Shown in pieces: positions 288-60,978 of a stretch of 64,000 nt of DNA. Below the pieces are notes generated by a model. It ran no database searches and was not told where the DNA came from. It saw nothing but the letters and a program-made list of their open reading frames with translations. Position 1 is the stretch's first letter. Every line of letters starts with the position of its first letter. Both the position numbers and the translations under genes were made by a program. The stretch comes from Haloarcula laminariae (lineage in GTDB: Archaea > Halobacteriota > Halobacteria > Halobacteriales > Haloarculaceae), in contig NZ_JAMZFY010000001.1 of assembly GCF_025457605.1 (NCBI RefSeq), forward strand, positions 124,001-188,000, in the 5' to 3' direction.

Positions 288-1094
288 CTACTGCTGATGA
301 CGGTGAATCTCATCGCGAACGATAGTCCGGATTTCCTGCTCAGGAAGACTCGTACCAGCTGGGATATTCGGTTCCTCGAGTGGCTCGAGTTCTTGGGCGG
401 CAGCTTTGAGCCGCTCGTCTTCAGCTTCGGCGTAGAAATAGAGGTCACGACGATCATCATACAGGGCCCGCAACGTTGACTCGGCAACGGGCGTTCCATC
501 AGCTGCCTCAGCGTACGTGTATCCTTGCCCGACCCTTTCGAGTGCCCGTCGAACAGTCAGGAATTCGTCGGTATTGACCTGGAGGTAGCCGTCTTCGACG
601 TCGAACCCGGCTGGAGGCCGTCCAGTCCATCGGCCGGCCTCTTTGGCTGCATCGATGCCGGACTGAATCCGGCGAAGCTTCTGTTTGTGCTCGATACGAG
701 CGAGGTCGCCCATGACCCCGGCAATGAGTTGGCTTACTGCTCTGTCGACGAGATCATCGTCGAGACTGATTTCGAGTCCGACTTCCATATCCCGAATTCC
801 GGTTTCTTGACTGAGACAGAATTCGAGAAATTCGTGGATTTCGCCGGCGCCAAGTCGGGAGAGGCGAGAGAGTTCGTGGACGATGACGATGTCCAGATTA
901 CCGTCTTCAATATCTGTCCGGAGCCGCTGGTACTCTTCACCGCGCTCGGTATCGGTTCCACTGATAATGTCCGCGTAGGTGTGAATCTCCGGCTCGTCGT
1001 ACGTGTCCTGGGCAAACTCTCGAAGTTCGCTGAGTTGACGGTGTGGGTCTTGGTCTGTTGTCGAGACACGGGCGTAGATCCCAATCACAGGCAT
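288..1094 (-). CDS. Serine recombinase / resolvase family protein
   Basis: A 268-aa protein with the N-terminal resolvase fold. The catalytic serine lies in YARVSTTDQ (about residue 11), and an arginine-rich LSRLSRLG segment follows near residue 75-85. The C-terminal part (about 185-230) looks like a helix-turn-helix (VAESTLRALYDD). Such enzymes cut and rejoin DNA through a phosphoserine intermediate, resolving plasmid multimers or moving elements. It is longer than a minimal resolvase core but lacks the very long C-terminus of large serine integrases. It stands alone, with a promoter-like AT-rich stretch upstream (1095-1160). Whether it serves this replicon or a lost element cannot be told. 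Family call is firm, role inferred. Confidence 0.9.
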   Translation of the reverse strand: MPVIGIYARVSTTDQDPHRQLSELREFAQDTYDEPEIHTYADIISGTDTERGEEYQRLRTDIEDGNLDIVIVHELSRLSRLGAGEIHEFLEFCLSQETGIRDMEVGLEISLDDDLVDRAVSQLIAGVMGDLARIEHKQKLRRIQSGIDAAKEAGRWTGRPPAGFDVEDGYLQVNTDEFLTVRRALERVGQGYTYAEAADGTPVAESTLRALYDDRRDLYFYAEAEDERLKAAAQELEPLEEPNIPAGTSLPEQEIRTIVRDEIHRHQQ

Positions 1095-1167: not shown

Positions 1168-1602
1168 CTACGGAGCTACTGGGGTATCACTGTCGGTGTC
1201 GAGCCCTTGAACCGGAACAGCGCCGGAGAACTCGAGCTCGTCGTACCAGACCGTCGGGCGCTTGGCTCGGCTTTCGTCTTCCAGTTCGATGAGGCCATAG
1301 TCGGCGAGTTCGTGTACGTTCTCAGTGACTTCCGGTGGATGACGATCGACGAGACGAGCGAGCTCTCGGATACTCGAAGGGTTGTGTTGGACGATGGCTT
1401 CGAGCAGTTCGAGATTTGTCGGCCCGAAGATGCGGCCGAAGGTTGTGAGACTCTCGATGCTCAGTCGGGATGGATTGGGATATACGCCGTCACCAGCGTC
1501 GATAGCCCCGAGCGTGTCTTCGAGGCTATTGCGTTCTGGACGAGTTCCAATCGTGATGCGAAGTGTTCGAGTCAGGAGTGGAAAGACCCCAGTGAATGTC
1601 AG
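1168..1602 (-). pseudogene. HVO_A0114-type DNA-binding protein lacking a start codon
   Basis: Reading the minus strand gives about 140 residues colinear with the neighbouring HVO_A0114-type protein. TLRITIGTRPE matches TLKVTVGERD at the N-terminus, and the winged-helix core reads GPTNLELLEAIVQHNPSSIR followed by ELARLVDRHPPEVTENVHEL. The frame ends at a TAG (1168-1170). Upstream it runs through the overlap with the gene ending at 1599 and meets stop codons without any ATG, GTG or TTG; only CTG codons (1573-1575, 1600-1602) are available. Either it initiates unusually, is translated by coupling, or has lost its start. It is the third copy of this family in the window. Confidence 0.6.
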
Positions 1603-2003
1603 GGCGCAGCAGCACCAATATTATCACTTGATCCAGCGAACGGGATATCGATTTCAAGCCCATCGTAGGTCAATAGCGGTTTCTTTGCCTGCCCGGAACC
1701 ACCTCCCTCGAATTCGATAACACCGATCGACTCGAGTTCAGTGAGATTCCGATGAACTTGTTTGTAGTCCCGGTCGACGAGTTCAGCGGCCTCGCGAATA
1801 CTTTCAGGACCGTGATCCGAGATCGACTCTAACAGTTCCAGATTCTTTGGGCTGAGGAGCCGACTGAGTTCGGTGTACGAGTCGAAGTTCAATACCGGTT
1901 GGACGTCTTCAAGATCCTGACCCTCCTGTGCAGCTTTGATACGACTGCGGGTACGCTGATCGAGACGGTCGCGTTCACCGACTGTGACTTTGAGCGTTGG
2001 CAT
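1599..2003 (-). CDS. HVO_A0114-family winged-helix DNA-binding protein (putative antitoxin/regulator)
   Basis: A 134-aa protein. Residues about 55-115 form a winged-helix core (LSPKNLELLESISDHGPESI, then REAAELVDRDYKQVHRNLTE), ending in a wing-like GVIEFEGGGSGQAKKPLLTY. It lies 30 bp downstream of a DUF6516 gene on the same strand, the same order as the pair at 22586-23336, so the two are probably co-transcribed and work together. In haloarchaea this pairing is usually read as toxin-antitoxin-like, with the winged-helix protein as repressor and antitoxin. The family assignment is strong by internal comparison; the antitoxin role is inference. Confidence 0.8.
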   Translation of the reverse strand: MPTLKVTVGERDRLDQRTRSRIKAAQEGQDLEDVQPVLNFDSYTELSRLLSPKNLELLESISDHGPESIREAAELVDRDYKQVHRNLTELESIGVIEFEGGGSGQAKKPLLTYDGLEIDIPFAGSSDNIGAAAP

Positions 2004-2033
2004 GTTGTGTTCCTCCTGGAGGCGTCCTACCGA

Positions 2034-2333
2034 TTACCAATTCCATGAGACCGGTGACAGTTCTTCGGCTTCTTGTTTGAACCGGTCGTACAGCGTGAGC
2101 ATCCCAGGGAACTCGATATATTCGACATCGGTCTGGGTGTGGCGCTCGTGTCCTTTCTGTCGTTCGTGAGCGTTGTCGTATCGGAGGATAGTATCGCCCC
2201 CAACTTCACCGAGATGCAGGCTGTAGTCCCAGCCACACGGGTACTTTTCATGGTCCGTTTGTCGGATGGTCACTGCAACAACGCAGCCGTCTTTCACATC
2301 CCGCCAGTCTTCGATTGTCGTGTAGGACGCCAT
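2034..2333 (-). CDS. DUF6516-type protein (putative toxin of a TA-like pair)
   Basis: A 99-aa protein clearly homologous to the one at 22586-22942. Shared blocks are VVAVTIRQTDHEKYPCGWDY versus IRVSVRRTDDNAYPSGWRY, ILRYDNAHERQKGHERH versus IRRYDNSHEDTKGHELH, and EFPGMLTLYDRF versus EFPGIEELYERF. The conserved RYDN-H-KGHE residues could be catalytic, but I know of no characterised activity. It is the first gene of a minus-strand unit with the winged-helix gene at 1599-2003. The start is the ATG at 2333; the next upstream region is AT-rich and promoter-like. Toxin function is inferred from the conserved pairing. Confidence 0.75.
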   Translation of the reverse strand: MASYTTIEDWRDVKDGCVVAVTIRQTDHEKYPCGWDYSLHLGEVGGDTILRYDNAHERQKGHERHTQTDVEYIEFPGMLTLYDRFKQEAEELSPVSWNW

Positions 2334-2700
2334 CCGCTAGCCTATGTTATCATCTCCATAGACATAAGCCTATGGAGGAAGACCCATAGGCGAGTGAGGG
2401 GGGATCTACTCCGGACTTTCTGCGGCGACAGCTCAATTGATAAACTGTCCGGGTTTTGAACGGCCCGTGAGAAGGACTACCTATCTACGGAAAACGATAC
2501 CCTTGATAGAATTGGGACACATCTGCTATCCTGATATCACGGATACATCAGGTACCCACTATTCGTTATAGCTCTGGAAAATTGCCCTATCTAATTCGAG
2601 GAATGTAGCTAAAACACGCTTAGACCGCTCACTGAGAGCGATAACAACAAAATAGTCACTATGTAAACGCTTACGTAGCCAGCTATAAGAATATGGCACA
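2334..2700. promoter_or_regulatory. Divergent intergenic region
   Basis: This 367-bp stretch separates the leftward DUF6516 unit from the rightward defence island. It is AT-rich, with several direct AT runs and a TATAAG about 15 bp before the ATG at 2701. I see no gene in it. Promoters for both directions are expected here, but I cannot place either start site. Confidence 0.4.
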
Positions 2701-3843
2701 ATGGGCGTCTTTGAGGTCGAACAAAGTTCATTCGACGACCTCGCAAGTTTCAACCACCACCTCGCAAGCAGCGCACGTGAGAACATTTCCAGCGACCTCT
2801 ATATTGTAGCCGGACTCTCACAGTTCTCCAAACAGGAATTCTTCGAGATACTCACCCAACGAGGGTACACAATCGAAGACCTCGGTGCAATTCAGAAGAT
2901 CAGTCGCACATATACGACCAGTGGCGACGCCCCGGACGACGCAATCCTGGAAGAAGAGCAAGAAGAAGCCGAAGAGGAAGACAATGGCAGCGAACGAATG
3001 GCCGAATTCTACCTCTACTACGACGAAGAGAGCGGTGTAACCCTATTCTACACTGACCAGCGAAAGACCAAGGAGATCAAATACACCGTGGCCAAGCTTC
3101 TAGATGGGGAGCGAGGTCTCCATTACCTGTACATAGGCCCTAGCCTGTTCAGGGACATAAGACGAGAAATCATCAGGAACGAGGAAATCGCTGAAATCAC
3201 AAAGTTCGTCGCTGACCGCTTAGAGGACAGTGACTACCCCTGCCGGATTCGGCCTGAAGTTGAGCGCACAATCCAGTACTACGGCGATGATGGCATCGAA
3301 GCACTCGAAGAGATGGAGGAGAACTACGGTGTCCGGCCCCGCAACATCACCTTCAACGTCCCAAACCAAGCTAAATTCCGCATCACACGCAAAGGTGTGT
3401 TCTCCCTCGGGCGTGGTGACCTGACCACACTCTTCGAATACGTCGAACTCTGCATCGAGAAAGCCCTCGAGATCAAGGAAGCATACGGCGAGTCAGAGTT
3501 CAAGATGCTCGCCACCACCGAGACGCTCAGCGTTCCGACTTCCGAGCCTGCATCGATTGAACTGAGTGGCCAGCTCGAATACAGCGAGGTTGAAAAGGTC
3601 AAATCGCGGATGAACGAGGAAGGCTACCTTCTGGTTGATTCCTTCCAACAGGAAGGGTCGCTATACTTCTCGTCGAAGGTGATGGACACCAAGAAAAAGA
3701 ACAAGTTCCGTATCAAGGCCAGTGAGGACGAGATTCGGGTGTTCCCACAGGAGACAGATGATAATCTTGGTTCCTTCCTTCGATTCCACGAATTCGTTCA
3801 GAGCAACATTGACCCAGATGCAAGTGTGGTAGTTGAGACGTAA
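2701..3843 (+). CDS. Unknown 380-aa protein, first gene of candidate defence island
   Basis: I do not recognise this protein. It has an N-terminal alpha/beta part (about 1-75), a highly acidic linker rich in E (about 80-100) and a long C-terminal part. That part holds two similar-looking segments: AKFRITRKGVFSL followed by a helix (about 225-260), and NKFRIKASEDEIRVF followed by a helix (about 335-375), so an internal duplication is likely. It has no signal peptide, membrane segment or zinc motif. The next gene starts 2 bp after its stop, so they are surely co-transcribed and probably functionally linked. Given the nucleases, helicase and methylase nearby, a role in target sensing or nuclease regulation is plausible but unproven. 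Confidence 0.75.
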   Translation: MGVFEVEQSSFDDLASFNHHLASSARENISSDLYIVAGLSQFSKQEFFEILTQRGYTIEDLGAIQKISRTYTTSGDAPDDAILEEEQEEAEEEDNGSERMAEFYLYYDEESGVTLFYTDQRKTKEIKYTVAKLLDGERGLHYLYIGPSLFRDIRREIIRNEEIAEITKFVADRLEDSDYPCRIRPEVERTIQYYGDDGIEALEEMEENYGVRPRNITFNVPNQAKFRITRKGVFSLGRGDLTTLFEYVELCIEKALEIKEAYGESEFKMLATTETLSVPTSEPASIELSGQLEYSEVEKVKSRMNEEGYLLVDSFQQEGSLYFSSKVMDTKKKNKFRIKASEDEIRVFPQETDDNLGSFLRFHEFVQSNIDPDASVVVET

Positions 3844-3845
3844 AC

Positions 3846-5009
3846 ATGTGCGACGAGGTCGCGCCTAGTGACGATGCCGCTGACATCTATTCGTATATTG
3901 AGGATCATCATCCTCGATGGCGCGACCGCAAGGAAGAAATCAAGCAAGAGAGTCTCGGTCAGACCGAAGATACCGAGAATATCATCAAAAAGCGAGTTGA
4001 GAAGGCAATCAAGACAGAGCAGAACCACGATGACCTTCTCGACTCAACCATCACGGCCTTCGGCCCCACATCGACCATCTTCGATGAGACAGGGTGGAAG
4101 CTGCTCGGAACTGAACCACTGTACGAGATTGACCCCGCGCTTCGGAACTCCGACGCTATTGTAGGGCATGATGACCGGGACACGATCGTTACTATCGAAT
4201 GCAAATCAGGCTTATCCTCCCCGAGAAACGCACTTGAACAGATTCGGGATGCCGGCGACATCATCCTAAATCACGCAGACCATCTAGAGAACAAGACCGG
4301 CGTCTCCTTCGAGAACGTTGAGCGTGTGTTGTGTGTTCCTGGTCAGAAAGCATGGCGTGCAATCGAAGCAATAGAGGCCGAAGAAAGTGAGGAAAGCCCG
4401 GATGAACCCATCTATCTGTGGAAGCTGAACCGCTTCCAAGACGAAACTCTCCAGCTCCACCAGCAGTTCGAAACTCGTTCCGAATCCGAATCAGTGCATG
4501 AGAGCCGTCTGGCGGAGATGCTTACCGGTGATGGAATCCGGATTGCAGACTGTCCATTGCTCACGCCATCGTTCTTCCCGGACTCACACCCGTTCACGGT
4601 CATGGAGCATACTTTCTCAGAGATTCTCTGGAATCGAACTGGTGAGGACAATGGGTCGATTCGAAACTTCACGCGCGCTGAAATTCACAACTTTATCAAC
4701 GACCAACAGAACGTTCCGCACTACGACACTGAGGTTGTAGCCGATATGCTAACCGAGGAATTGCTATCAAAGTTGTTGGACTTCGGTTTGATTGAGGAGG
4801 ATAACCCATCAGAGGAAGGAATGGGATCCAGTGTCGAACTCTACGGATACGATGAGGACAGCGTCTCGGGACAGAGTATGGACACGATTCTGGCCACCCT
4901 GAAGGAAGAATACCAGAGTGAGTTGATTGAGCGGAAGGCAGAGCGAGAAGCAATCAAGCAGACTGTAGAGGAGTTCCTTGACGACCAGAGTTCGTTCGAC
5001 GATTACTAA
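3846..5009 (+). CDS. PD-(D/E)XK nuclease-like protein of candidate defence island
   Basis: A 387-aa protein. The central part (about 95-135) reads NSDAIVGHDDRDTIVTIECK, matching the D...(13-14)...E-x-K arrangement of the PD-(D/E)XK nuclease fold, followed by a helix with a Q that may complete the site. The C-terminal 150 residues are helical and charged and may bind DNA or a partner. Its ATG follows the stop of the 380-aa gene by 2 bp, and the helicase gene begins 36 bp downstream. Such ECK-type domains occur in restriction proteins that cut unmodified DNA. The catalytic triad is visible; substrate and partners are inferred. Confidence 0.7.
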   Translation: MCDEVAPSDDAADIYSYIEDHHPRWRDRKEEIKQESLGQTEDTENIIKKRVEKAIKTEQNHDDLLDSTITAFGPTSTIFDETGWKLLGTEPLYEIDPALRNSDAIVGHDDRDTIVTIECKSGLSSPRNALEQIRDAGDIILNHADHLENKTGVSFENVERVLCVPGQKAWRAIEAIEAEESEESPDEPIYLWKLNRFQDETLQLHQQFETRSESESVHESRLAEMLTGDGIRIADCPLLTPSFFPDSHPFTVMEHTFSEILWNRTGEDNGSIRNFTRAEIHNFINDQQNVPHYDTEVVADMLTEELLSKLLDFGLIEEDNPSEEGMGSSVELYGYDEDSVSGQSMDTILATLKEEYQSELIERKAEREAIKQTVEEFLDDQSSFDDY

Positions 5010-5045
5010 CGAAGACGTTCAGGGGAGGCGAAGTTTTCAACACAC

Positions 5046-8000
5046 TTGGCAACCAGTGGTAACTATCTGATGTTATCACTGGATCCACTCGTCGACAATA
5101 CTGACGGCACACTCGAAGATGCATACCGAAAAGTCAGCCCCGAGTGTGAGGAGATACGCATCGCGACGGGCTACTTCTATCTCTCCGGGTTCAATCTCAT
5201 CAAGGAAGATTTAGCGAACCTACGTGACCCGGATGAGATGGCGTACGCTCCGCTACGGATTCTAATGGGTCGAAAAACAAATCGGGCTACAGCAGAGGAG
5301 ATCTCTGAAGGACAGACTCTCCGAGAACAGTTTACGGATGAATTGGAGAGTGACATCGAGAGCCTGAACAACGCCCAGCTGGAACGGCTCGACCGGTTGC
5401 GCGACTTCATTGCAAATGATTTAGTCGATATACGGGTCCGGAATCCCGAACAGGGCTATTTCCACGCCAAGGGGGTGTCTTTCCGTGGTGCCGTTGACGA
5501 CCCCGATATTCGAGAGGGCGAAACGGACCGCCGGGCAGCTGTAACCATCGTCGGTTCGTCAAACTTCTCTCAGAGTGGCCAGCGAAATAACGTCGAGCTC
5601 AATCTCACAAGTCAGGAACGCGGCGATGCCAGGGCCTTCGAAAAGTGGTACGACAACCAGTGGGCGAATGCAGAAGAATTCTCGGAGGAGATCGTACAAA
5701 TCATCGAGAATAGCAGCCGGTACAAGCAGTGGAAACAGAAGCAATCGGACGACAGCGACGACGAAGAACTCGGAACATATCTCGAGCCCTTCGAGATGTA
5801 CAAGCTGCTCGCCTATGACGAACTCAGCGGGAACGTAGGTACACGTGACAGCCCGCTCTACTACTTCCAGACGCTCGGGTATGAGAGTGCCAAGGAGAAA
5901 CTATCGCGGTACGATGGTTGTATCATTTCCGACTCAGTCGGTCTGGGGAAGTCGTTCATCGGGAGTGAGTTGCTCTACGACTACCGACAACGGGGCGACC
6001 GATGTCTCCTAGTCGTTCCGGCAAACCTGACCGAGCAGTGGGCCGATCTCTTGGAGAGCGCCACTGACGAAGACGGGGACCCGTTCTTCGGGCTCGAAGT
6101 CGATGAGACCCACCTCCGGGTAATGAGCATCAGTAAGTTCCAGAACCTCTCATACGAGGACGTTCAAGAACTCGACGACGCCTTCGACGTGGTGCTGATC
6201 GACGAGGCCCATCGATTCCGTAATTCGGGGAAGTGGAATCCGAACCCTGGGCACGACGACGCGTACCAGGGGACGCGTCGGCATGCTAATCTCCGCTTGC
6301 TCAGGGAGCAGACAATGATAATGCTGACCGCGACGCCGATTAACAACTCAGCAACGGACCTGAAGAACCTCATCAGTCTCTTTACCAGCCCAGAGGAGCT
6401 GATGAACAAGGCGTCACTCGACTTCGATGCCTTCGACCAGTATATCGAGAAATCGGAGCAGCGCAAGCGCATTGCGGCTGGGAAAGAGGAGGTGACTGAG
6501 GACGAAGAACAGGAACTGACCGAGCAGCTCCAGCGACACTCGACGGAGATTTCCGAGATTCTGAACGAGGTGATGGTCCTCCGGACTCGGAAGCACGTCA
6601 AGGAGACAATCAAGGAGGACGAGGAGTTCAAGATGGACTTCTCGCCACCGACACTCCACAAGGAGCAGTACAGTCTCCCGCCAGCGTACCAACCCATCTA
6701 TCGGATGCTCCCGGACGTGATGGATGCACTCCACCTCCCCCATATCACGATTCGCAATCCGCAGGCGGGTGGCACGCTGAAAGCGCTCTACAAACTCAAT
6801 CTACTGAAGCGGCTGGAGTCGTCAACGTATGCCTTCGTCCAGTCGATTCAAACACTCCACGAGAGCGAGCGGTCGTTGCTCGGATTTCTGGAAGGCCTAC
6901 CTGATGACGAAGATATCGAGGTACTTCGAGCCGTCCAGGATGACGAAGCCGCCACCACTATCGACGACTTTGTCGAGGGGGAGGATGCCGCCGAAGACCT
7001 GGAGCAAAATCTGGAAGAGTTCGGCTTCGATACGGGAGCTCTCCGATCTGACAGCGGTGACGACGACAGTGACCTCGAGCTGGCCGATGCGACGGTTGGT
7101 GAAGTAAAGCGGTACATCAGAGAGGACCTCACACTCATCGCATACTTTCTCTCGCGATTCATCGGACGCGTCGCCGAGGACGCTGGCGGCGTCGCGGATG
7201 CCGAGGTTGAGCTGGAGCGGTGGCTCGCAGACAATGGGGCAGCAGTCTTGCCTGAAGTCCCCGAGGAGGACCACAATCCAGTGCTCTATCGGAGTGAACT
7301 CGTTGACGCCGACACCCAAACGATGGACTTCTACGAGGCAGTCTTCGCACTCCGAGAGTTCCGGGACCCGAAGATTGACCGACTGGCGACGGTGCTCAAC
7401 GGGTACGAACAGAAGGTTCTCATCTTCACCCAGTACCGAGCGACGGCAGACTACGTCCATCGGACGCTCATCGAGGACCCAGAGTCCCCGCTCACGTCGG
7501 CTAACAGCGCTGTGGTGAAAGGCGGCGACGAAAACAAGCAGGACATCATCCGGCGCTTCGCACCCGACGCAGCGGGCTATCAACAGACGCTCGCGGAGAG
7601 TGACGAAACAGAACTCCAGTACGTTGTCGCCACCGACACACTGAGCGAGGGGGTCAACCTTCAGGACATCAGTGTCGTTGTCAACTACGACCTGCCGTGG
7701 AATCCCATGCGAATCGTCCAGCGGGTCGGGCGAATCGACCGCATCGGGTCGACGGCGGAAAAGTACGTTCACAACTTCTACCCCGACGGCGACATCGAGG
7801 CGGCGATCAAACTCTTGGAGCGTCTGCAGGCGAAGATCGACGACATCGCGCTCATCGTCGGCAAAGAGAACAATATTCTCGACCCCAACGAGGACGCCGT
7901 ACTGGAGCGGGCAGGCGTCGAGACGCAGAAAACTATCGGCGAACTCGAAGTTGAGGAGATTGAGGAGTCGCTACGGCAGTCTCGCGAGGTCGACGACTAC

Positions 8001-8870
8001 AACGAACTGGACGACACCTCGAAGAACCCCCTGCTCCGAAACGCGGGGAGCGACGAGAGTGCTGCCTTCGAGCGGTATCTGCTGAAGCAGGAGCTGAACG
8101 ACGACTTCGAACTCGACACTGATGATTTCGAGTTCGCCGAGGAGTATCTCGATGAGGCACCAGGAGAGCGTGAAATGCTATACACCAACGCTATCGGCCA
8201 CGAGTCCGGCCCACAACCAGGTGTGTTCGGACTCGCCCATCTCTGGTTCGAGGACGAAGACAGCGGTGAAGCCGAGCCCGCTCCGCTCGGTCGTGTCCGG
8301 CGGGCATTCTACTACAAACCGTTCGCTGGTGAAGTGAAAGAGCGCCCAGTTCGACATCTCGGAATCGAGCCGGGCACCAGCGGCGAACCTGTCGATGGGA
8401 ACACCGACTCCATATTATCGAACCGTGAGGACATCGAAGAGCACCTGGACAACCGGCTGGAATCAATCCGTGAAGGACAAGTCGGTGCTGCGTTCAAGCA
8501 GGGTGAAAAGTTCTCGAAGGAGCAGGAAACGATTCTGGACTTCTTGAGTGGTTATATTCTCCTGAATCACGACGACGAGACTGCTCCGGTAGACGACCAC
8601 GACACGCTGGGAGAGTGGGCTGCCGATTTACAGAAGCAGCTAAACGAGGTCAAACTCAAAAACACAGACGAGGATCGTATTCTACGGGAGACATTCCGAA
8701 ATCATCCTGAGTACGAATCTCTCCCTGAGTGGCCGCCTTCGGAGTTTCTTGCTGAGGTGGATGCGTTCCTTGAAGAGAACATCAAGACATCGTCCGAGTA
8801 TCAGGACACGCTCGTGGGAGAGAGTGCCGTTCAGGCCCGGCTACTCTGCTGGGGGATCATCGGAAAATAG
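5046..8870 (+). CDS. PLD-like/SNF2-family helicase
   Basis: A 1274-aa protein. The N-terminus carries a phospholipase-D-like nuclease fold: FHAKG near residue 138 and GSSNFSQSGQRNNVELN near 169-185. A superfamily-2 SNF2-type helicase follows: Walker A DSVGLGKSFIG (about 297-307), DEAH in LIDEAHRF (about 384), LTATPINN (about 427) and motif VI QRVGRIDRIGS (about 892). The long acidic C-terminus is unassigned. PLD-SNF2 proteins are recurrent in restriction-like defence loci, where they translocate on invader DNA. I chose the TTG at 5046 because a GGGGAGG lies 17 bp upstream; an in-frame ATG at 5070 is the alternative. It converges on the nuclease/methylase pair, ending 10 bp before it. Confidence 0.9.
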   Translation: MATSGNYLMLSLDPLVDNTDGTLEDAYRKVSPECEEIRIATGYFYLSGFNLIKEDLANLRDPDEMAYAPLRILMGRKTNRATAEEISEGQTLREQFTDELESDIESLNNAQLERLDRLRDFIANDLVDIRVRNPEQGYFHAKGVSFRGAVDDPDIREGETDRRAAVTIVGSSNFSQSGQRNNVELNLTSQERGDARAFEKWYDNQWANAEEFSEEIVQIIENSSRYKQWKQKQSDDSDDEELGTYLEPFEMYKLLAYDELSGNVGTRDSPLYYFQTLGYESAKEKLSRYDGCIISDSVGLGKSFIGSELLYDYRQRGDRCLLVVPANLTEQWADLLESATDEDGDPFFGLEVDETHLRVMSISKFQNLSYEDVQELDDAFDVVLIDEAHRFRNSGKWNPNPGHDDAYQGTRRHANLRLLREQTMIMLTATPINNSATDLKNLISLFTSPEELMNKASLDFDAFDQYIEKSEQRKRIAAGKEEVTEDEEQELTEQLQRHSTEISEILNEVMVLRTRKHVKETIKEDEEFKMDFSPPTLHKEQYSLPPAYQPIYRMLPDVMDALHLPHITIRNPQAGGTLKALYKLNLLKRLESSTYAFVQSIQTLHESERSLLGFLEGLPDDEDIEVLRAVQDDEAATTIDDFVEGEDAAEDLEQNLEEFGFDTGALRSDSGDDDSDLELADATVGEVKRYIREDLTLIAYFLSRFIGRVAEDAGGVADAEVELERWLADNGAAVLPEVPEEDHNPVLYRSELVDADTQTMDFYEAVFALREFRDPKIDRLATVLNGYEQKVLIFTQYRATADYVHRTLIEDPESPLTSANSAVVKGGDENKQDIIRRFAPDAAGYQQTLAESDETELQYVVATDTLSEGVNLQDISVVVNYDLPWNPMRIVQRVGRIDRIGSTAEKYVHNFYPDGDIEAAIKLLERLQAKIDDIALIVGKENNILDPNEDAVLERAGVETQKTIGELEVEEIEESLRQSREVDDYNELDDTSKNPLLRNAGSDESAAFERYLLKQELNDDFELDTDDFEFAEEYLDEAPGEREMLYTNAIGHESGPQPGVFGLAHLWFEDEDSGEAEPAPLGRVRRAFYYKPFAGEVKERPVRHLGIEPGTSGEPVDGNTDSILSNREDIEEHLDNRLESIREGQVGAAFKQGEKFSKEQETILDFLSGYILLNHDDETAPVDDHDTLGEWAADLQKQLNEVKLKNTDEDRILRETFRNHPEYESLPEWPPSEFLAEVDAFLEENIKTSSEYQDTLVGESAVQARLLCWGIIGK

Positions 8871-8880
8871 GTGACTTCTG

Positions 8881-9912
8881 TTACCAATCGATGTCGCCAA
8901 CCTCTGTTCGACGCAACTCAGAGAGGCTCATTCCGTGCTCTGAGTGTTTCCAGTAGGGATAGCCGTTGACGTTGAATTCTCGCCCAGTCGCTCGCTCTAA
9001 GACGGCCTGTGCAAGTGCTGTGAACGAATATTCGGTCCCGTTTTCCAGCCACTCCACGTTGTTGCTCCGGCCAGTCTTGCCCGTGATACGACCGCGCCAG
9101 AAGTCAGTGTCCGCATCGTACTCTATCTCGCTGTCGTTGGGAACTTTCCCCGGGTCAAACATGACGATATCCCCTTCCTCGACTAAGCCCGCCTCGAGGA
9201 GGACTGTAATCGCCCGCTCTGCACGGCTGGTACTCCTACTCTGTTTCCGCTCTTTCTGCCGACGCTTCGCCATGTACTCCTCTGCCTCTGGAACCGGGAG
9301 CACCCGTCGGGAACTAATAAAGACCTGATCGTTACGCTGGTGAGCCTCCAGTTCTACACAGGTGATGTCCATCCCGAACTCGCGTTCAAGCCAGACCACA
9401 GGTGTCGTGATTTCCGGACCGAAGCTGCCTGCTGCTAGTACGATTCGCGGTCTGTCGTCGAGTGCGAAGTCAGCATACCCGTCCTCAGCGGTCCCGACAT
9501 CTTCACCGAGGAACGTCCTGAAGGCTTCCCCGACGTCATCTGGCGTCAGCTGGTCCTCTTCGTCCCGGCGATCATTCCAGAAGCCGCGATAATCCTGCTG
9601 GAGCTCTTCTGCGCTAATCGTCGAGCAGTAGCTCGCGTACTTGATCGCTTGGAGGTCGGTCGTCGCATCTGCACGGTCTCGCTTCAATTCGACTACGACC
9701 AGTTTGCCGTCGGGGTCAAGTGCCAGTACATCGGGTCGTTCGGCAGTCCGGTCGAACTTGGCATACTGTGACGCAACGACCAGTAAATCCTCACCTAGAA
9801 TTTCAGGCGTCTCGATAACCCACTCTTCGATATTGGCCTCCGTGACGTCTATTGATTCGAAGCTCGCTGGTTCCAAGGCATCGAGGCCCTGTCCGTTGAC
9901 GTGATAGACCAT
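8881..9912 (-). CDS. NucS/DUF91-like endonuclease
   Basis: A 343-aa protein. Residues about 50-95 carry a PD-(D/E)XK core: RPDVLALDPDGKLVVVELKR gives the D and the ExK, with a following QAIKYA helix. This resembles the DUF91 / NucS-like fold found in restriction-associated nucleases. The C-terminus (about 290-343) has a small domain with NVNGYPYWKHSEHGMSLSEL, possibly DNA-binding. Its start codon overlaps the stop of the upstream methylase gene (TAATG), so the two are translationally coupled. The two gene pairs converge here. Most likely the cutting component paired with the methylase; the strand specificity is unknown. Confidence 0.8.
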   Translation of the reverse strand: MVYHVNGQGLDALEPASFESIDVTEANIEEWVIETPEILGEDLLVVASQYAKFDRTAERPDVLALDPDGKLVVVELKRDRADATTDLQAIKYASYCSTISAEELQQDYRGFWNDRRDEEDQLTPDDVGEAFRTFLGEDVGTAEDGYADFALDDRPRIVLAAGSFGPEITTPVVWLEREFGMDITCVELEAHQRNDQVFISSRRVLPVPEAEEYMAKRRQKERKQSRSTSRAERAITVLLEAGLVEEGDIVMFDPGKVPNDSEIEYDADTDFWRGRITGKTGRSNNVEWLENGTEYSFTALAQAVLERATGREFNVNGYPYWKHSEHGMSLSELRRTEVGDIDW

Positions 9913-12900
9913 TATTCGAAGGGCCCCTCTTCTGCGAGCAGGTCGAACTTCTCGAAGACCATATCGAAGTACTCCTCGTCCATCAGACGTGGATTCTCGA
10001 CTCTGTGGAAGTCATCCAGTATAAATTCGACCTCACGACGTTCTAACCCATACGCATGGAAGGCTGCTGCGTCAATTTCAGCCCGAAGGCGCTGACGCTC
10101 GTCTCCTGTCGTTGCAGCGTCAATACCTCCAAGACGCTCACGCATATCTGCGAATTCCTCTCCATAGCAATTCAACCGAGCAGCTCTATCAGAGATGTAG
10201 TGGAACCAGTCATCTCCGTCTGTGAGACGTGGTAGTTGGGACTCATTGAATTTGTACTGGACGATATGACTGTCTACCTTAGTCCGCATTAGGTAATCGA
10301 ACGGAACACTGTTGAGAAGTCCAGCCACCACGAAGAGTTCTTTATCGGTGAACGCCCGATTGTAGGCGCTATGCATAGGATAGTTTCCGAGGTCTTCTTC
10401 GCTGGGGTCGATAACGTACGGGCGGATTGTACAGATAGTGTGGACAGTTACGACATCTTTCGGTAGTACTGTCGCGATCAGGCTTCGTTCGTCATCCGCT
10501 CTCGCGATATTTCGAATCCCGATACGGTATTCAGTACAATCCAAAAGGACATCCTCTTTCGACAACTCTGGCCGGCCGTGCTGCTCCAACAGATCGTTGA
10601 CGAATCCCTTCTGTGAGCCCGTGCCATCGAACTTCTGATAGATGGACTTCTTCAGGCTCGTGTTTACATCTCGTGACCTGAAATTCTTCATTCGAACTCT
10701 ATGTTTGGCACTTAGCTCGGGGTCATCCTCATTAACGCCCCACAGAGAGATTGGAGTGAGATTCTCTTCGATTTCGTTGTCGTATGCGAACTGGTGGATG
10801 TTCTTCCCCTCGTAGATTGGGTAGTCTCCCTCCTCTTCTGACTCAATAAGGCGGTCAGAGTCCGTCGCTCGATCCAATTCCTTCATATAGAGGATAGCGA
10901 ACCATGTATCGTCAACCTCCTGACCGATAGGAGGATACTGAATCATTTTCCGCAGTGCGTCTATTAAGCTCTGAGACCGGAAATAGGGGAAAATTCCAGC
11001 TTCGGGCGAATAGTGTTTGAGAACCTCTACTGGGACATCTATCGAACGCTCTTCGAAATGCTCCAGTATCGAAACGTCTCCATTGCTAAATCCACCCTTC
11101 ACAGCCCCTGTACTACCGCTGTTCTTAAACGTACAAACAGAGAACCGATACCGGTCATCCAGCTCATCGAATATCTGCTTATTCTGGAACTGGACAAAAT
11201 GTTCGAGTGTGGTGTGGTCTATGAGATATTGGCGTAAGTCCTTGCCAGTAGCTCCGAGGAAGAAGCTCCCCGGCATAATTTGGGTCACGTACGTGTCTTC
11301 ACTCGCTAACTGAGTCGTTCGCTCGAAGAAAAACAGCGAGAGTTCATTTTCCGTGGCGACCGTTTTCCCTCCAACAGTCGGACTCTGAAGTTCGTACTGG
11401 GTAGTGGTATTGTAGTACTCTGCTTTGAGTTCCATCTCACGCTGGAAGTCTTCCCACGCTTCACGCACCTCCGGATCTTCCAGCAGCTTTTCTTGCATCT
11501 CGTCTTTTTCGCTTGGGGGGCGGGTGCGAAATCGCTCGTCGTACTTCGGGAAGAAATGGTCTCGATCTACCGTTAGGACGTCCCACGGTGGGTTTCCGAT
11601 AATGACGTCGAAGCCTCCATCCCGGTATACTGGTGCGAATTCCAGGACCCAGTGGAAAGGATGGAATTCTTCGAGTACATCCGCATCAACATCATCAATA
11701 CCAGCTTCCTTGAACTGGCTGAGAACCTTCTCATCCAACTCTTCACTGTGTGAGGCTATACGAGATTCAGCTAATCGCCGGGCATTGGTCGCCTCTTTCG
11801 CACTCGTAGCTTCCCGGTGTCGGTCGATCGCCTCTATAACGTCCTCATAGAGTTCTCTGACACTCGATTCTGTCCCGGCACCCCAGTTATTCAGCGAACC
11901 GTCACCCGCCTCCGTCGCAACTTCCATTGTCTCAGTAAACCCAATGAGTGAGTTCCCCTGTCGAATGTTGAAGTCAATGTTGGGGAGGGGCTCTACTTCG
12001 CTTGGTTCATCCTCGATATCCGCAACCATTGAGAGCCACAAGCGAAGCTTGCAGATTTCTACGGCACCATCGTCGATATCGACACCATAGAGATTGTTCA
12101 GGATGATTGAGCGCTTAGCGTACAACGATGCGTTACCCCGTCCGCCTTCGATGTGCTCCAGTTCCTCACGCGTCCGGTTCTCCAGTTCCCATCCTCTCCC
12201 CTCAGACTCCAACTGCTGAAAGAGGTTGATACACTGCATATAGATATCCAATAGGACCTCCTGAGATGCGAGCAAAAATGCACCACTACCGACCGCAGGG
12301 TCGAGCACTCGCATCTCAGTCAGCACGTCGTGATATAGAGTCTCGACGTGCTGAGTCTCGATATTCTGGCTAGGTGCTTGGGCTGTTACAGCCCCGCCAT
12401 CAGCAAGCGCAGTAATATCTGCTTCTGCCTCCACCGAAGGGAAACCGAATACGTCATCGATTGTATCGTATTCCGCGTCAACGGCGTCGTTGAGTTGGTC
12501 AAGGAGATAGGGATGTATCGAATGTCGAGCCATGAACCCGGTGATCTCCTCGGGGGTATAGTACGCCCCCATCTCTTTCTGGTTGACCGTCTGCTCGAAG
12601 ATGTGTCCGAGAATCGCTGGCGAGAGATTCTTCGGGTCGACGACATCGAGGCGCTCGTCGACGTTCCAGTTCCAGTCCGAGAGGAAATCCAAGATATCCC
12701 CGAAGTATTCGTTCGTCTGCTCTGACGAGTCGCCCAATCGCGCGTCTTCGAATTCCTCTTCGACCGGATTCTTCGAGAACAATCCGCCGTTCAAGTACGG
12801 CAAGCTCCCGAAGTCGGGGTCCTGCTTCCCCTCCGCAAGCATTTCGAAGAACAGTGGGTGATAGAACTCGTCGTAGACGTCGCCGCCCTCGTCAACGATC

Positions 12901-13544
12901 GCTTCGTGCTTCTCGTGTAGATACTCGATATTGCGGTCGAGAAGCCGCTTCTCCTGAATGAAGTAGAGGAAAATCATCCGGTCGAGGAGGACCTGGACGT
13001 ACCGCTGTTTTGCGTCTCCACGATTGTCGGGGATATTGGCGACTTCCTGGACCAGATTTGTCCGAAGCTCCTCGAACTGCTGGTAGAACTCCTTGACCAC
13101 CTGCTTGGTGTCGTAGAGTGTGTCCTGAATGGCGTCAGCAGAGCCGTACTCGATGCTATTGAGCTTCTGGAGAACGGTATTCTTCTCGCCGCTCTCGCTC
13201 GTCATCTGCTCTTTGGTGAACGAGAGCTTCTGGTGCTTGATGCGGCCATGCTGCTGGCCTTCCCAGCTCCGGATACGAGTCAGGAAGGTGAAATCCTCGT
13301 AGTCGTTCGTCGCGACGAGGTTCGTCCGTCGGTTTCGATTGTCCGGCTTGAAATCCGTCGCCGATTCGCCCGGCCCCGCTTCGACAACGACGATGAATTC
13401 GGTGTCGGTGAGCTGAAGGACCAATTCGTTCTCCTCGCCGAGATTTTCCCGTGGCTTCAGTCCACGCTTCTTGAAGGAATCAGCGATAGCATCGAGAGAA
13501 TTCCAGCCCGCGATATCTTCCTTGGAAATCTGCTGGAGAGCCAT
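9912..13544 (-). CDS. Eco57I/PglX-like N6-adenine DNA methyltransferase
   Basis: A 1210-aa protein. Methylase motif I is LDPAVGSGAFL (about residue 413) and motif IV is GNPPWDV (about 650), the NPPW signature of N6-adenine methylases of the Eco57I/type IIG group. The long C-terminal half (about 850-1210) should be the target-recognition region. Length and order resemble PglX of BREX, but no PglZ phosphatase, BrxC ATPase or BrxL is present in the window, so I do not call BREX. No clear nuclease motif was seen at its N-terminus, so cutting probably comes from the adjacent DUF91-like protein. It is the first gene of its leftward unit. Confidence 0.88.
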   Translation of the reverse strand: MALQQISKEDIAGWNSLDAIADSFKKRGLKPRENLGEENELVLQLTDTEFIVVVEAGPGESATDFKPDNRNRRTNLVATNDYEDFTFLTRIRSWEGQQHGRIKHQKLSFTKEQMTSESGEKNTVLQKLNSIEYGSADAIQDTLYDTKQVVKEFYQQFEELRTNLVQEVANIPDNRGDAKQRYVQVLLDRMIFLYFIQEKRLLDRNIEYLHEKHEAIVDEGGDVYDEFYHPLFFEMLAEGKQDPDFGSLPYLNGGLFSKNPVEEEFEDARLGDSSEQTNEYFGDILDFLSDWNWNVDERLDVVDPKNLSPAILGHIFEQTVNQKEMGAYYTPEEITGFMARHSIHPYLLDQLNDAVDAEYDTIDDVFGFPSVEAEADITALADGGAVTAQAPSQNIETQHVETLYHDVLTEMRVLDPAVGSGAFLLASQEVLLDIYMQCINLFQQLESEGRGWELENRTREELEHIEGGRGNASLYAKRSIILNNLYGVDIDDGAVEICKLRLWLSMVADIEDEPSEVEPLPNIDFNIRQGNSLIGFTETMEVATEAGDGSLNNWGAGTESSVRELYEDVIEAIDRHREATSAKEATNARRLAESRIASHSEELDEKVLSQFKEAGIDDVDADVLEEFHPFHWVLEFAPVYRDGGFDVIIGNPPWDVLTVDRDHFFPKYDERFRTRPPSEKDEMQEKLLEDPEVREAWEDFQREMELKAEYYNTTTQYELQSPTVGGKTVATENELSLFFFERTTQLASEDTYVTQIMPGSFFLGATGKDLRQYLIDHTTLEHFVQFQNKQIFDELDDRYRFSVCTFKNSGSTGAVKGGFSNGDVSILEHFEERSIDVPVEVLKHYSPEAGIFPYFRSQSLIDALRKMIQYPPIGQEVDDTWFAILYMKELDRATDSDRLIESEEEGDYPIYEGKNIHQFAYDNEIEENLTPISLWGVNEDDPELSAKHRVRMKNFRSRDVNTSLKKSIYQKFDGTGSQKGFVNDLLEQHGRPELSKEDVLLDCTEYRIGIRNIARADDERSLIATVLPKDVVTVHTICTIRPYVIDPSEEDLGNYPMHSAYNRAFTDKELFVVAGLLNSVPFDYLMRTKVDSHIVQYKFNESQLPRLTDGDDWFHYISDRAARLNCYGEEFADMRERLGGIDAATTGDERQRLRAEIDAAAFHAYGLERREVEFILDDFHRVENPRLMDEEYFDMVFEKFDLLAEEGPFE

Positions 13545-17332: not shown

Positions 17333-17473
17333 CGTTTGTGCCAGGTAGTAACCATTTACATTTTATAAGCGTTTGGCGGAGACTGGTAGTTACAAAAACT
17401 CTGCTATTGCATCTCTTCTGCAAGTTTCTCTCATAATCTAGGTGTACTCCAGTTTTGGTTTAACAGTATCAGT

Positions 17474-18371
17474 GGCTCTGTTGAAATCCTCAGAGTGTTA
17501 CAGGTTCGCCCGGTAGTTTGACAGAATGCAGGCCCTCCCGAAGTCGCGGTTACTCTGGTTTGTTGAGCAGGCGTATCACTTGGCTCGGCGAGCTGTCGCT
17601 CGGTACTCCTCGAAGTTCTCGAAACGCCGGTACACACTCCACCAACACATCGTTCTGCTGTGTCTCAAGGTTCGGAAGAATACGACGTACCGAACGCTTC
17701 TCGACGAACTCATCGAGATGCCCCGGATTCGGAGCGCCATCGACCTTGAGGAACTTCCGTCTCCCTCGACGCTGTGTAAGGCGTTCAATCGGCTTGATAT
17801 GGCGGTTTGGCGTGTCCTACTCAACCTTTCTGTCACACTCCTCCCGACCAACGGTGTCGTTGGTATCGACGCCTCCGGCTTCGACCGGAGTCACGCCTCA
17901 AAGCACTACACGAAGCGAACGAAGTTGACGATTCAGCAGTTGAAAGTCACGCTTCTCGTAGACACGAAAGTGAACGCAATCATCGACTTACACGTGACGA
18001 CCACGCGAAAACACGATTCGCAGATTGCGCCGTCGCTCATCAAGCGAAACACCGGAGAAGTAGCGGTTCTTCTTGGCGATAAGGGATACGACGACCAGAA
18101 GATTCGGGCGTTAGCCCGTGAAACTGGTGTTCGTCCGGTCATCAAGCATCGAGAATTTTCGTCGCTTCACAAGGCGTGGAACGCTCGACTGGACGCCGAT
18201 CTCTACGGTCAGCGCAGTCAGAACGAGACCGTAAATTCTCGCCTCAAACGCAAGTACGGGGCATTCGTCCGCTCACGGCGCTGGTGGAAGCAGTTCCGTG
18301 AACTCGTTGTCGGCTGTCTCACTCACAACATCGACAAGGCACTCTGAACGTTAGATACAGATAGCTGATTT
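17474..18371 (+). mobile_element. IS5-family insertion sequence, right end apparently lost
   Basis: The left end carries GGCTCTGTTGAAATCCTC (17474-17491), a terminal repeat typical of haloarchaeal IS5-type elements, and the transposase gene follows. After the gene the sequence reads GATAGCTGATTT and then departs; I do not find the reverse complement of the left repeat, so the right terminus seems truncated. A solo copy of the left-end motif sits at 56214-56228. The family call rests on the transposase; the truncation is my inference. Confidence 0.7.
17526..18347 (+). CDS. IS5-family DDE transposase
   Basis: A 273-aa transposase. The DDE triad is visible: D in GVVGIDASGFDRSH (about residue 118), D in VLLGDKGYDDQK (about 186), and E in NETVNSRLKRKYG (about 237), with the usual R/K residues after it. 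The N-terminal 100 residues contain the predicted DNA-binding helices (RYTLHQHIVLLCLKVRKNTT). It looks full length and intact. The start is the ATG at 17526, 35 bp inside the left terminal repeat. Confidence 0.92.
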   Translation: MQALPKSRLLWFVEQAYHLARRAVARYSSKFSKRRYTLHQHIVLLCLKVRKNTTYRTLLDELIEMPRIRSAIDLEELPSPSTLCKAFNRLDMAVWRVLLNLSVTLLPTNGVVGIDASGFDRSHASKHYTKRTKLTIQQLKVTLLVDTKVNAIIDLHVTTTRKHDSQIAPSLIKRNTGEVAVLLGDKGYDDQKIRALARETGVRPVIKHREFSSLHKAWNARLDADLYGQRSQNETVNSRLKRKYGAFVRSRRWWKQFRELVVGCLTHNIDKAL

Positions 18372-34336: not shown

Positions 34337-35533
34337 TTATGCGGACTTACAGGCTTTGATGACGAGTTCTGGGTCATCAACTAACTGATTTACCGTATGG
34401 GCGCCGCGTCCTCGACCCCGGCCCTTGTGCTGTTGCCGGATTACAGATAAAAACTCTAACTCCGAGAGCAGATCACGGACACGACGGTTTTTGAGCGGCT
34501 CCGAACCTTCCTGTTCACACATGAGTTCGTATAATGAATACACGTCTTCGGTCGGAATCTCTGGTTCGTCCTCGTCGTGCTGTTGAGCCTGTAGTGCGAG
34601 GGCATGCAGAAGGTGTTTTGAGTGGGTCGGTAGTTTCGAGATGAGTTCCGACAGGCGATTTCGTTCCTCCCGTTCGTGGGCTTCGTCGACGTGCTCCTCA
34701 GAGACGATTTCGCTACCGCGTTCGTATGCAGATTCACCAGCGTATCGCAGAATATCGATTGCCTTCCGTGCATCTCCATGCTCACGTGCAGCGAGGGCCG
34801 CGATTTTCGGAATGACCTCATCGCCCAAGACGCCATCATGGAAGGCATCACTTCGAGATAAAAGAATGTCGCGTAGCTGGTTGGCATCGTACGGAGCGAA
34901 GACGAGATCACGTTCCGATAGGCTTGATCGGACCCTCTCGTTAAGATTCTCTTTGTACCGAATCTTGTTGCTGATGCCGATGATTCCTAAGGTGCTCTCG
35001 GTGAGTTTGCCCGACTCGGCAGCTCGTGAGAGTTGCATCAAGATATTATCGTTGTCAAGTTTGTCGATCTCATCAAGGATGACGAGGCCGACGTCGTACT
35101 GGGCATCAAGAATATCCCACAGCTTTCGATAATAATTCGATGTACTCAGTCCAGACATAGGAACTGAAATATTAGTCTCGTCAGGCATATTGAGTGCACT
35201 GGCAACTGACCGGACAGCCTGCGTTTCGGTGGAGTCCTGAAAACAATCAACGTAGGCAACACCGACCTCAACATCGTTTTGTTTGGCTGACTCGGTCAAA
35301 TCATTGGTAATATACTTCGTACACAGCGATTTCCCGGTGCCGGTCTTTCCATAGATTAACACGTTGTTCGGTGTCCGACCTTGGGTAGCGTCTTTAATCG
35401 CATTGGCAAGCTGTGTGAGTTCCTCATCGCGCCCAATGATTCGATCCTTATCAGGGAGATGTTGGACGCGAAGCAAATCCTTGTTGGCAAAGATGGGGTC
35501 ATCTTCGTCAAAAAAGGAACCCAAATCGGACAT
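34337..35533 (-). CDS. orc1/cdc6: Orc1/Cdc6-family replication initiator
   Basis: A 398-aa AAA+ protein. Walker A is IYGKTGTGKS (residues 60-69) and Walker B GLVILDEIDKL (149-159). The Orc1-type sensor and C-terminal winged helix (about 300-385, EDVYSLYELMCEQEGSEPLK then NRRVRDLLSELEFL) follow. It should bind origin repeats and load the MCM helicase. The 22-bp repeats flank it on both sides, three downstream and three in its promoter, as expected for an initiator with its own cognate origin and perhaps autoregulation. Full length and intact. Confidence 0.95.
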   Translation of the reverse strand: MSDLGSFFDEDDPIFANKDLLRVQHLPDKDRIIGRDEELTQLANAIKDATQGRTPNNVLIYGKTGTGKSLCTKYITNDLTESAKQNDVEVGVAYVDCFQDSTETQAVRSVASALNMPDETNISVPMSGLSTSNYYRKLWDILDAQYDVGLVILDEIDKLDNDNILMQLSRAAESGKLTESTLGIIGISNKIRYKENLNERVRSSLSERDLVFAPYDANQLRDILLSRSDAFHDGVLGDEVIPKIAALAAREHGDARKAIDILRYAGESAYERGSEIVSEEHVDEAHEREERNRLSELISKLPTHSKHLLHALALQAQQHDEDEPEIPTEDVYSLYELMCEQEGSEPLKNRRVRDLLSELEFLSVIRQQHKGRGRGRGAHTVNQLVDDPELVIKACKSA

Positions 35534-59532: not shown

Positions 59533-59594
59533 CGATTTTTTGCTCCCCCGGCAGGTGCGGGGACGTGCCAGAGAGTACGTCCCGACAGACACCC
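59533..59594 (+). promoter_or_regulatory. T-box/two-hairpin leader element 16 (long form)
   Basis: GATTTTTTG, P1: TCCCC (59544-59548) with GGGGA (59559-59563), loop with GGCAGGTGC. P2: GGGACGT (59560-59566) with ACGTCCC (59577-59583), perfect 7 bp. The ATG is 11 nt after P2, as in element 2. Confidence 0.7.
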
Positions 59595-60071
59595 ATGTCG
59601 AGTGACCCACATCCCGAGGAGTCGAATCGCACCATCCGCGCAGTGGACCTCTTCTGTGGCGCTGGTGGCCTCTCGTGGGGGCTGGTTGAGGCGTTGAAAG
59701 ACGTCGCGATGACTATCCCACAGCCGACCCGAGCTGTTCTGGAGGAGACCATCGACCTCGTCGGGGTCAACCACTGGGAGCGAGCTATCGAGACCCACGC
59801 AGCGAATCACCCGTGGGCCCGGCACTTCCACGACGATATCCAGAACGTGAATCCGCGAGCAGTCTTCGACGAGCGCGACCCTACAGTCACTATTCTCTCC
59901 GGCGGTATCGAGTGTACCCACTGGTCGACGGCCCGGGGTGGCAAGCCCGTCGACGAACAGAAACGGATGCCCGCGTGGGACTTCCTCACCTGGGTTCAGA
60001 AGCTCCGTCCTGAGCATGTTCTGGTCGAAAACGTGCCAGAGTTCCGCTCTTGGGGGCCGAGTATAGAATAA
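59595..60071 (+). pseudogene. Truncated C5-cytosine DNA methyltransferase
   Basis: A 158-aa frame with motif I VDLFCGAGGLSWGL (about 18-30), the catalytic cysteine in GGIECTHWSTARGG (C107) and ENVPEF (motif VI, about 145). It stops after FRSWGPSIE, before motifs VIII to X and the target-recognition domain that a full enzyme of over 300 aa requires. Sequence immediately after it belongs to an Orc1/Cdc6 remnant, so a deletion or recombination has joined two unrelated genes. Probably inactive alone. The leader element in front of it is intact. Confidence 0.85.
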
Positions 60072-60722: not shown

Positions 60723-60738
60723 GCATACAACTGTATGC
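60723..60738. promoter_or_regulatory. Palindrome overlapping the vapB start
   Basis: GCATACA-AC-TGTATGC: a 16-bp inverted repeat. The ATG at 60735 lies within it, so the next ATG (60741) is a better start. The position suggests an autorepression operator. Confidence 0.6.
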
Positions 60739-60740
60739 AC

Positions 60741-60977
60741 ATGTCGAAGAGCATCCGTCTCTCCGAGGACGCCTACGAGCGCCTCGCCGCTCACAAAGGG
60801 GAGGACGAAACCTTCTCCGAGGTGGTTCTCCGCCTCGCCGGCGAGCGATCACTCCTCGAACTTGCGGGGATTCTCAGCGACGAGGAGGCAGCGTCACTGC
60901 GTGACGCCGTCGACGAACGCCGCGAACAGCGCGGCCGCGAGCTCGAACAGATTGCCGGCGAGCTAGAGGACGCGTAG
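60741..60977 (+). CDS. vapB: VapB-type antitoxin
   Basis: A 78-aa protein starting MSKSIRLSEDAYERLAAHKG. The first 45 residues fit a ribbon-helix-helix or AbrB-like DNA-binding antitoxin (TFSEVVLRLAGERS), and the acidic C-terminal helix would wrap the toxin. It is followed after 1 bp by the PIN toxin gene. A 16-bp palindrome at the start codon fits autorepression; a TATA-like TTTTTATAG lies at about 60663. Confidence 0.8.
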   Translation: MSKSIRLSEDAYERLAAHKGEDETFSEVVLRLAGERSLLELAGILSDEEAASLRDAVDERREQRGRELEQIAGELEDA

Positions 60978-60978
60978 C

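Follow-up and report, generated by a model that had tools for sequence, protein, structure and literature searches.

Gene content of the locus

Five consecutive genes in the window (the whole stretch of 64,000 nucleotides of Haloarcula laminariae DNA analysed here) raise the question of whether they form one defence system or several, and what the individual parts might do. A sequence-only reading had described them as a five-gene defence island, belonging to neither BREX nor DISARM and most novel in its first two genes. All five open reading frames were found at the claimed positions, lengths and orientations (Table 1), and the defence-type content was borne out by Pfam and PADLOC matches of genes 3 to 5. 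The genes and their places stand, while the implied unity gave way to two adjacent modules, here called A and B. Translation of gene 3 more likely begins at the ATG at 5070, in line with the RefSeq homologue, which gives a gene from 5070 to 8870.

Table 1. Positions of genes, modules and the module boundary in the window, and of the related viral cassette.
Feature	Position	Strand	Remarks
Gene 1	2701-3843	+	380 aa
Gene 2	3846-5009	+	387 aa; start 2 nt past gene 1 stop
Gene 3	5046-8870	+	1274 aa counted from TTG
Gene 4	8881-9912	-	343 aa
Gene 5	9912-13544	-	1210 aa
Module B	2701-5009		genes 1 and 2
Module A	5070-13544		genes 3 to 5
Module boundary	4996-5085	no strand	start of blastn DNA homology with helicase-methylase loci that have no genes 1 and 2
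TM partner and genes 1-2 of Harhisp1	L156 2017-4933

The earlier assignments of genes 2 to 5 were supported as well. Gene 3, read as a PLD-SNF2 helicase, carries PLD and SNF2/helicase domains (Pfam, E 3e-8 to 9e-18) and matches PADLOC C3a139 'HKD+Snf2' (E 3.2e-77). Gene 4, read as a DUF91-like nuclease, gave a NucS_C-like match (Pfam, E 8.5e-5) with a weak RAMA match beside it (Pfam, E 0.004) and a match to PADLOC PDC-S11 (E 1.9e-53). The Eco57I methylase assignment of gene 5 (Pfam, E 1.9e-26) was accompanied by a match to PADLOC REase_MTase_IIG (E 4.1e-71), and PglX models matched this protein weakly and below the cut-off. The PD-(D/E)XK assignment of gene 2 agrees with an intact motif in the window (D103 and E118-x-K120 in the alignment) and with the core fold predicted in its model. 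Genes 3 to 5 fall into listed candidate families, and the novel part is indeed genes 1 and 2: gene 1 matched no Pfam, NCBIfam or PADLOC family (41 members searched against Pfam and PADLOC), and gene 2 gave no significant family in the same three collections and nothing convincing across 41 members.

Two neighbouring modules

In blastn comparisons with loci L039, L041, L101-L104, L126, L127 and L129, DNA homology to the window starts just past gene 2 and continues to the end of gene 5. The expected co-occurrence of gene 1 with the helicase for the most part did not hold elsewhere, as gene 3 was close to gene 1 in only two of the 40 gene 1 loci (L039 and L041) and, additionally, within a few kb of it on a Halomicrobium plasmid (L126). 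Vice versa, the strongest gene 3/4/5 loci (L101-L104 and L127-L130) carry neither gene 1 nor gene 2. Because of the homology boundary and the separate recurrence of each part, the five genes are two neighbouring modules, and a single five-gene system was rejected on the same grounds. That all five genes nevertheless act together in defence would agree with their adjacency, with gene 3 following gene 2 on the same strand, and with the proximity of gene 3 to gene 1, a few kb at most, in the three loci named above. However, the order or strands of the two genes in these three loci are unlike those in the window, the boundary separates gene 2 from gene 3, and each module is found without the other, so that we regard joint action as highly improbable.

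A block of approximately 780 bp in the window (1603-2377), holding an HVO_A0114-type winged-helix gene (1599-2003, minus strand), is 80% identical to DNA just past the methylase in L102 and L127. In the window, this block sits at the opposite end, upstream of gene 1. The changed position suggests that the HVO_A0114-type regulator and the R-M-like module may have moved together, or that genes 1 and 2 may have been inserted between them.

Module A, a helicase-methylase pair

Relatives of gene 3 were found on 22 plasmid records, every one of the matches listed bearing a haloarchaeal name, and the helicase-methylase pair is present on named plasmids of Haloarcula, Halobacterium salinarum and Haloquadratum walsbyi (PL47), among others. 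Genes 3 and 5 converge on each other in L101-L104 as well as in L126-L130. Relatives of gene 4 with at least 80% identity lie in L101-L104, where gene 3 is convergent to genes 4 and 5; gene 4 occupies the same place in L127 and is absent in L126, L128 and L130. It is an optional accessory of module A.

With regards to known systems, no match to PglZ, BrxC, BrxL, DrmB or DrmC was found among the window proteins scanned with Pfam, PADLOC and NCBIfam, in agreement with the earlier exclusion of BREX and DISARM. BREX membership was rejected with neither PglZ nor BrxC matched. DISARM membership was rejected with DrmB and DrmC unmatched and with the DrmA and DrmD matches partial, well short of the NCBIfam thresholds and confined to the helicase part of gene 3, which reached 141 bits against DISARM_DrmD (NCBIfam cut-off 610 bits). 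Type-2 BR systems combine an N6-methylase with a fusion of HKD nuclease and Swi2/Snf2 helicase and are regarded as R-M-like (PMC12839542). Genes 3 and 5 share both features with this DUF499-centred BR/Hma Type 2, whereas module A has an Eco57I/IIG methylase and a convergent two-gene core, and no DUF3780 was seen in it. Membership in the DUF499-centred group was rejected, as the DUF499 AAA+ ATPase gave no match in the genome of the window while the control genome was positive. Gene 5 also matches the models of Type IIG/MmeI-like R-M enzymes but, unlike these, always comes with a PLD-SNF2 helicase-nuclease as a second protein. Module A is a new member or variant of the R-M-like helicase-methylase systems, built from listed candidate families.

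Judged by its gene content, module A is probably a restriction-type system, common on haloarchaeal plasmids. In a working model drawn from the domains, the Eco57I-type methylase of gene 5 would mark self DNA, and the PLD-SNF2 helicase-nuclease encoded convergently to it would translocate along unmarked DNA, driven by ATP, and cleave it, with the NucS-like/RAMA protein of gene 4 possibly serving as an optional reader or second nuclease. Even though its components belong to listed candidate families, the pair is a coherent R-M-like module that is common in haloarchaea.

Module B, an inseparable two-gene cassette

A search of the order located gene 1 in 50 of 392 genomes (approximately 13% of haloarchaeal genomes), and genes 1 and 2 also occur in other families of the phylum. 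Gene 2 came next after gene 1 on the same strand in 40 of 40 loci, with gaps of -4 to +6 nt, and in 51 of 51 once 11 more loci were included (four of the 51 being duplicates). It also came directly after gene 1 in another 11 non-redundant loci from the phylum-wide search. Across the 59 non-redundant loci, no intact one departs from this linkage, and the gap extends to about 175 nt in L143 and L144 by the ORF starts called here. Two weak matches of the phylum search had no recognisable gene 2, namely a decayed fragment (L150) and a very divergent protein (L151). The latter is gene-1-like (E 1.7e-7) and is followed by a 331-aa gene not recognisable as gene 2 (L151 7635-9867), which might possibly be a further version of the cassette. 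Genes 1 and 2 are an inseparable, self-contained cassette, and their neighbours vary by locus.

The cassette occurs on haloarchaeal plasmids, in some cases beside Orc1/Cdc6 genes. Inspected locus by locus, its defence neighbours were the PLD-SNF2/methylase module in the window, L039, L041 and L126, a DUF1156 methylase with McrBC in L117-L119 (with an HmaC-like ATPase in L117), and a DrmMI/IIG-like methylase in L048. In L123 (4719-12915), genes 1 and 2 are immediately convergent with two BrxC-like genes that differ from each other (1279 and 1248 aa) and are separated by a few kb. An operon resembling type I R-M lies beside the cassette in L143 and L144, where ORFs were read by eye rather than by family scan.

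The cassette was also found in a virus. In the pleolipovirus provirus Harhisp1 of Haloarcula, HarHp1_105 is gene 1 and HarHp1_100 is gene 2, the latter with a degenerate motif, while HarHp1_110 is a TM protein that recurs as a partner of the cassette (see below). Scans of viral contigs gave no relative, and Harhisp1 was obtained from the annotated phage set. The provirus is reported to have been induced and to have come from a cell-free stock (PMC7911831). Viral carriage fits a role in inter-element conflict, e.g., superinfection exclusion, but also a role in recombination. At a separate place (L156 6242-7558), Harhisp1 additionally encodes a pentapeptide-repeat protein for which a TM domain is predicted at the C-terminus.

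Predicted folds of the cassette proteins

No solved relative of gene 1 was found by sequence, and the sequence search of gene 2 against the PDB gave nothing meaningful. The AlphaFold2 model of gene 1 (pLDDT 69, pTM 0.59, nine-sequence alignment) had RdgC as its best Foldseek match in the PDB (2owl, E 1.6e-4, probability 1.00), followed by RnlA and then archaeal TBP; among viral models, it matched phage proteins resembling RdgC as well as viral homologues of TBP. The RdgC match extends over most of the length, with a TM-score of about 0.3 (0.28) and 7-12% identity, on a model of pLDDT 69. Because the global TM-scores are low, these matches are a fold-level lead rather than an assignment of membership. 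Read by eye, the DSSP string shows the beta-alpha-beta4-alpha order of TBP lobes in two stretches and comes close to it in a third. Since comparing profiles of the three proposed lobes revealed no internal repeats, the lobe reading draws only on the secondary-structure order and the Foldseek results. With moderate confidence, the predicted fold of gene 1 lies near the RdgC/RnlA/TBP-type nucleic-acid-binding folds, and the protein is a probable nucleic-acid-binding sensor.

The differences from these relatives are substantial. Gene 1 is approximately 12% identical to RdgC, is archaeal, is always accompanied by gene 2 and sometimes by a membrane partner, and none of its 41 members gave an RdgC match in Pfam. 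RnlA is an anti-T4 RNase (RNase LS), and RnlAB is an anti-T4 TA system (PMC3710099); the predicted fold of gene 1 matches both RnlA and TBP-lobe proteins, but gene 1 gave no Pfam match to the HEPN RNase domain, and its partner is a PD-(D/E)XK protein. TBP lobes are regarded as binders of double-stranded nucleic acids (PMC7221094), and TALON joins a TBP-type domain to effectors including a PD-(D/E)XK nuclease (PMC12458937). Genes 1 and 2 are comparable to TOTE/TALON in combining a predicted TBP-type domain with putative effectors, yet they come without a recognised TPR-cold-shock or OB partner and without a YprA helicase; no TPR or OB gene common to the loci was found among the de novo clustered neighbours.

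For gene 2, the AlphaFold2 model (pLDDT 80, pTM 0.78) shows a PD-(D/E)XK core, and its C-terminus was read as a winged helix followed by a long helix or coiled coil. Foldseek returned mostly PD-(D/E)XK nucleases, among them PaqCI, XisH, R.BspD6I and the Shedu nuclease domain, all with E >1e-3.

Motif loss and membrane partners

De novo clustering of the genes neighbouring genes 1 and 2 revealed two dedicated partners. The TM partner (163-207 aa) has an N-terminal hydrophobic helix, sub-threshold in some members, and lies upstream on the same strand in 15 loci. The pentapeptide-repeat partner (about 490-510 aa) is divergently oriented, ends in a tail with two predicted TM helices, and was found in 10 non-redundant loci. 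The 15 best matches to the TM partner in 384 genomes were exactly the 15 linked to gene 1. In comparison, the pentapeptide-repeat/two-TM family is widespread, occurring in 123 of 384 genomes and mostly away from gene 1, as expected of a recruited protein.

The presence of a partner followed the state of the gene 2 motif. In the first set, none of 19 loci with the D-E-K motif had either partner, and all 25 loci with a partner had a degenerate motif. The phylum-wide second set added 10 partnerless loci with D-E-K, and a single exception in L145, which has S in place of E in the motif and likewise no partner. Overall, an upstream dedicated partner was present in 0 of 29 D-E-K loci and in 25 of 27 loci with degenerate motif. 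Three loci with a D-E-E motif (L051, L058 and L060) had no partner, and TM genes of unrelated kinds lie close by in L031 and L038. The gene 1 tree shows three changes of the motif and three of the partner, and these share their branches. The raw Fisher p of 8e-15 for motif versus partner ignores relatedness and is not independent evidence, and the independent-pairs (sign) test gave p 0.5, significance being out of reach with two to three events. As only these two to three evolutionary events underlie it, the association, though striking, falls short of statistical proof.

Locus L035 is cut by a contig end. On another contig of the same genome, a pentapeptide-repeat gene lies at the very start (L157 1-1491). 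Since both contigs terminate in similar AT-rich sequence and a G/C run, they may be the sides of one gap; no contig-end overlap joining L035 with its missing partner was found, and L157 as the source of that partner is suggestive only.

Type III CRISPR systems offer a parallel, as their ancillary effectors include nucleases as well as membrane proteins, the latter comparable to the partners described here. Cam1 and Csx23 are such membrane effectors (PMC10808066, PMC11014256). In contrast to these systems, no CRISPR array, Cas10 or CARF domain was identified with genes 1 and 2.

Proposed mechanism and alternatives

Taken together, we lean slightly towards two adjacent, functionally separate anti-element cassettes, with module A acting in an R-M-like manner and module B sensing nucleic acid and relying on either a nuclease site or a membrane effector. 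In module B, gene 1 would bind, through its RdgC/TBP-type lobes, a nucleic-acid state produced by an invading replicon, and this sensing would activate gene 2, to which gene 1 is proposed to bind. The ancestral-looking form of gene 2 in the window would cut DNA via its PD-(D/E)XK site. In two derived lineages, the site was lost and gene 2 presumably retained only as an adaptor, and the co-acquired membrane protein, either with its N-terminal TM helix or with pentapeptide repeats and a two-TM tail, would become the effector, probably acting on the membrane.

Three other explanations deserve consideration. Genes 1 and 2 could be a module through which mobile elements recombine or replicate, of use to the element itself instead of against competitors, in which the RdgC-like gene 1 coats DNA and gene 2 processes ends. 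The best fold match to RdgC, including phage RdgC-like proteins, speaks for such a role, as does the carriage of the cassette by plasmids and by a provirus, in some cases beside Orc1/Cdc6 genes. Still, gene 2 stays linked even though its nuclease motif is lost in about half of the loci, dedicated membrane partners accompany the cassette, and it is recurrently sited beside R-M, BREX-type and McrBC genes, which makes this role unlikely. A toxin-antitoxin pair, with an RnlA-like gene 1 and one member holding the other in check, appears distinctly unlikely: RnlA is the second structural match of gene 1 and belongs to an anti-T4 TA system, and the two genes are coupled and sit on mobile elements, but Pfam detected neither HEPN nor another toxin catalytic domain in gene 1, the product of gene 2 has a nuclease fold and is no small antitoxin, and additional membrane partners would be atypical. 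The motif-partner pattern itself might reflect lineage hitchhiking, with partner gain and motif loss each occurring once or twice and being unrelated to each other. The small number of events and the powerless sign test leave room for this. On the other hand, motif and partner change along shared branches, two unrelated membrane families are involved, and the 11 loci added later were 10 with an intact motif and no partner plus the single exception L145; hitchhiking is considered somewhat doubtful.

The families of module B are absent from Pfam, NCBIfam and PADLOC, and its composition was not found in the openly licensed literature searched, although each of its parts has a known fold and effector exchange has precedents. 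As a tentative proposal that may well fail, module B could be a new class of archaeal immune system, in which an RdgC/TBP-lobe sensor is combined with a PD-(D/E)XK protein that became a pseudonuclease adaptor with a recruited membrane effector in two lineages, the cassette also being used by a temperate pleolipovirus against competitors. If true, a compact immune cassette outside these three collections would be present in roughly one in eight haloarchaeal genomes and would exchange its effector, nuclease versus membrane protein, as known for CRISPR ancillary proteins. It would also provide a natural experiment in which catalytic-site loss predicts partner gain, and would assign a first function to three 'hypothetical' genes of Harhisp1 and to genes of a Halorubrum lacusprofundi plasmid.

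Setting of the locus in the window

Further features were noted in the surrounding DNA. An Orc1/Cdc6-like ORF (34337-35533, minus strand, start as read here) and a resolvase (288-1094, minus strand, Pfam E 7e-23) are present in the window, pointing to a possible integrated plasmid-like region. A transposase-like ORF (17526-18347) lies in a segment (17472-18360) that is approximately 89% identical, in two pieces, to sequence in the vicinity of the plasmid-borne helicase of Halobacterium salinarum (L128). Towards the far end of the window, a short ORF (59565-60071) begins like a C5-cytosine methylase and was read as a possible fragment, and it is followed by an ORF pair (60735-61368) that reads as antitoxin-like and PIN-like.
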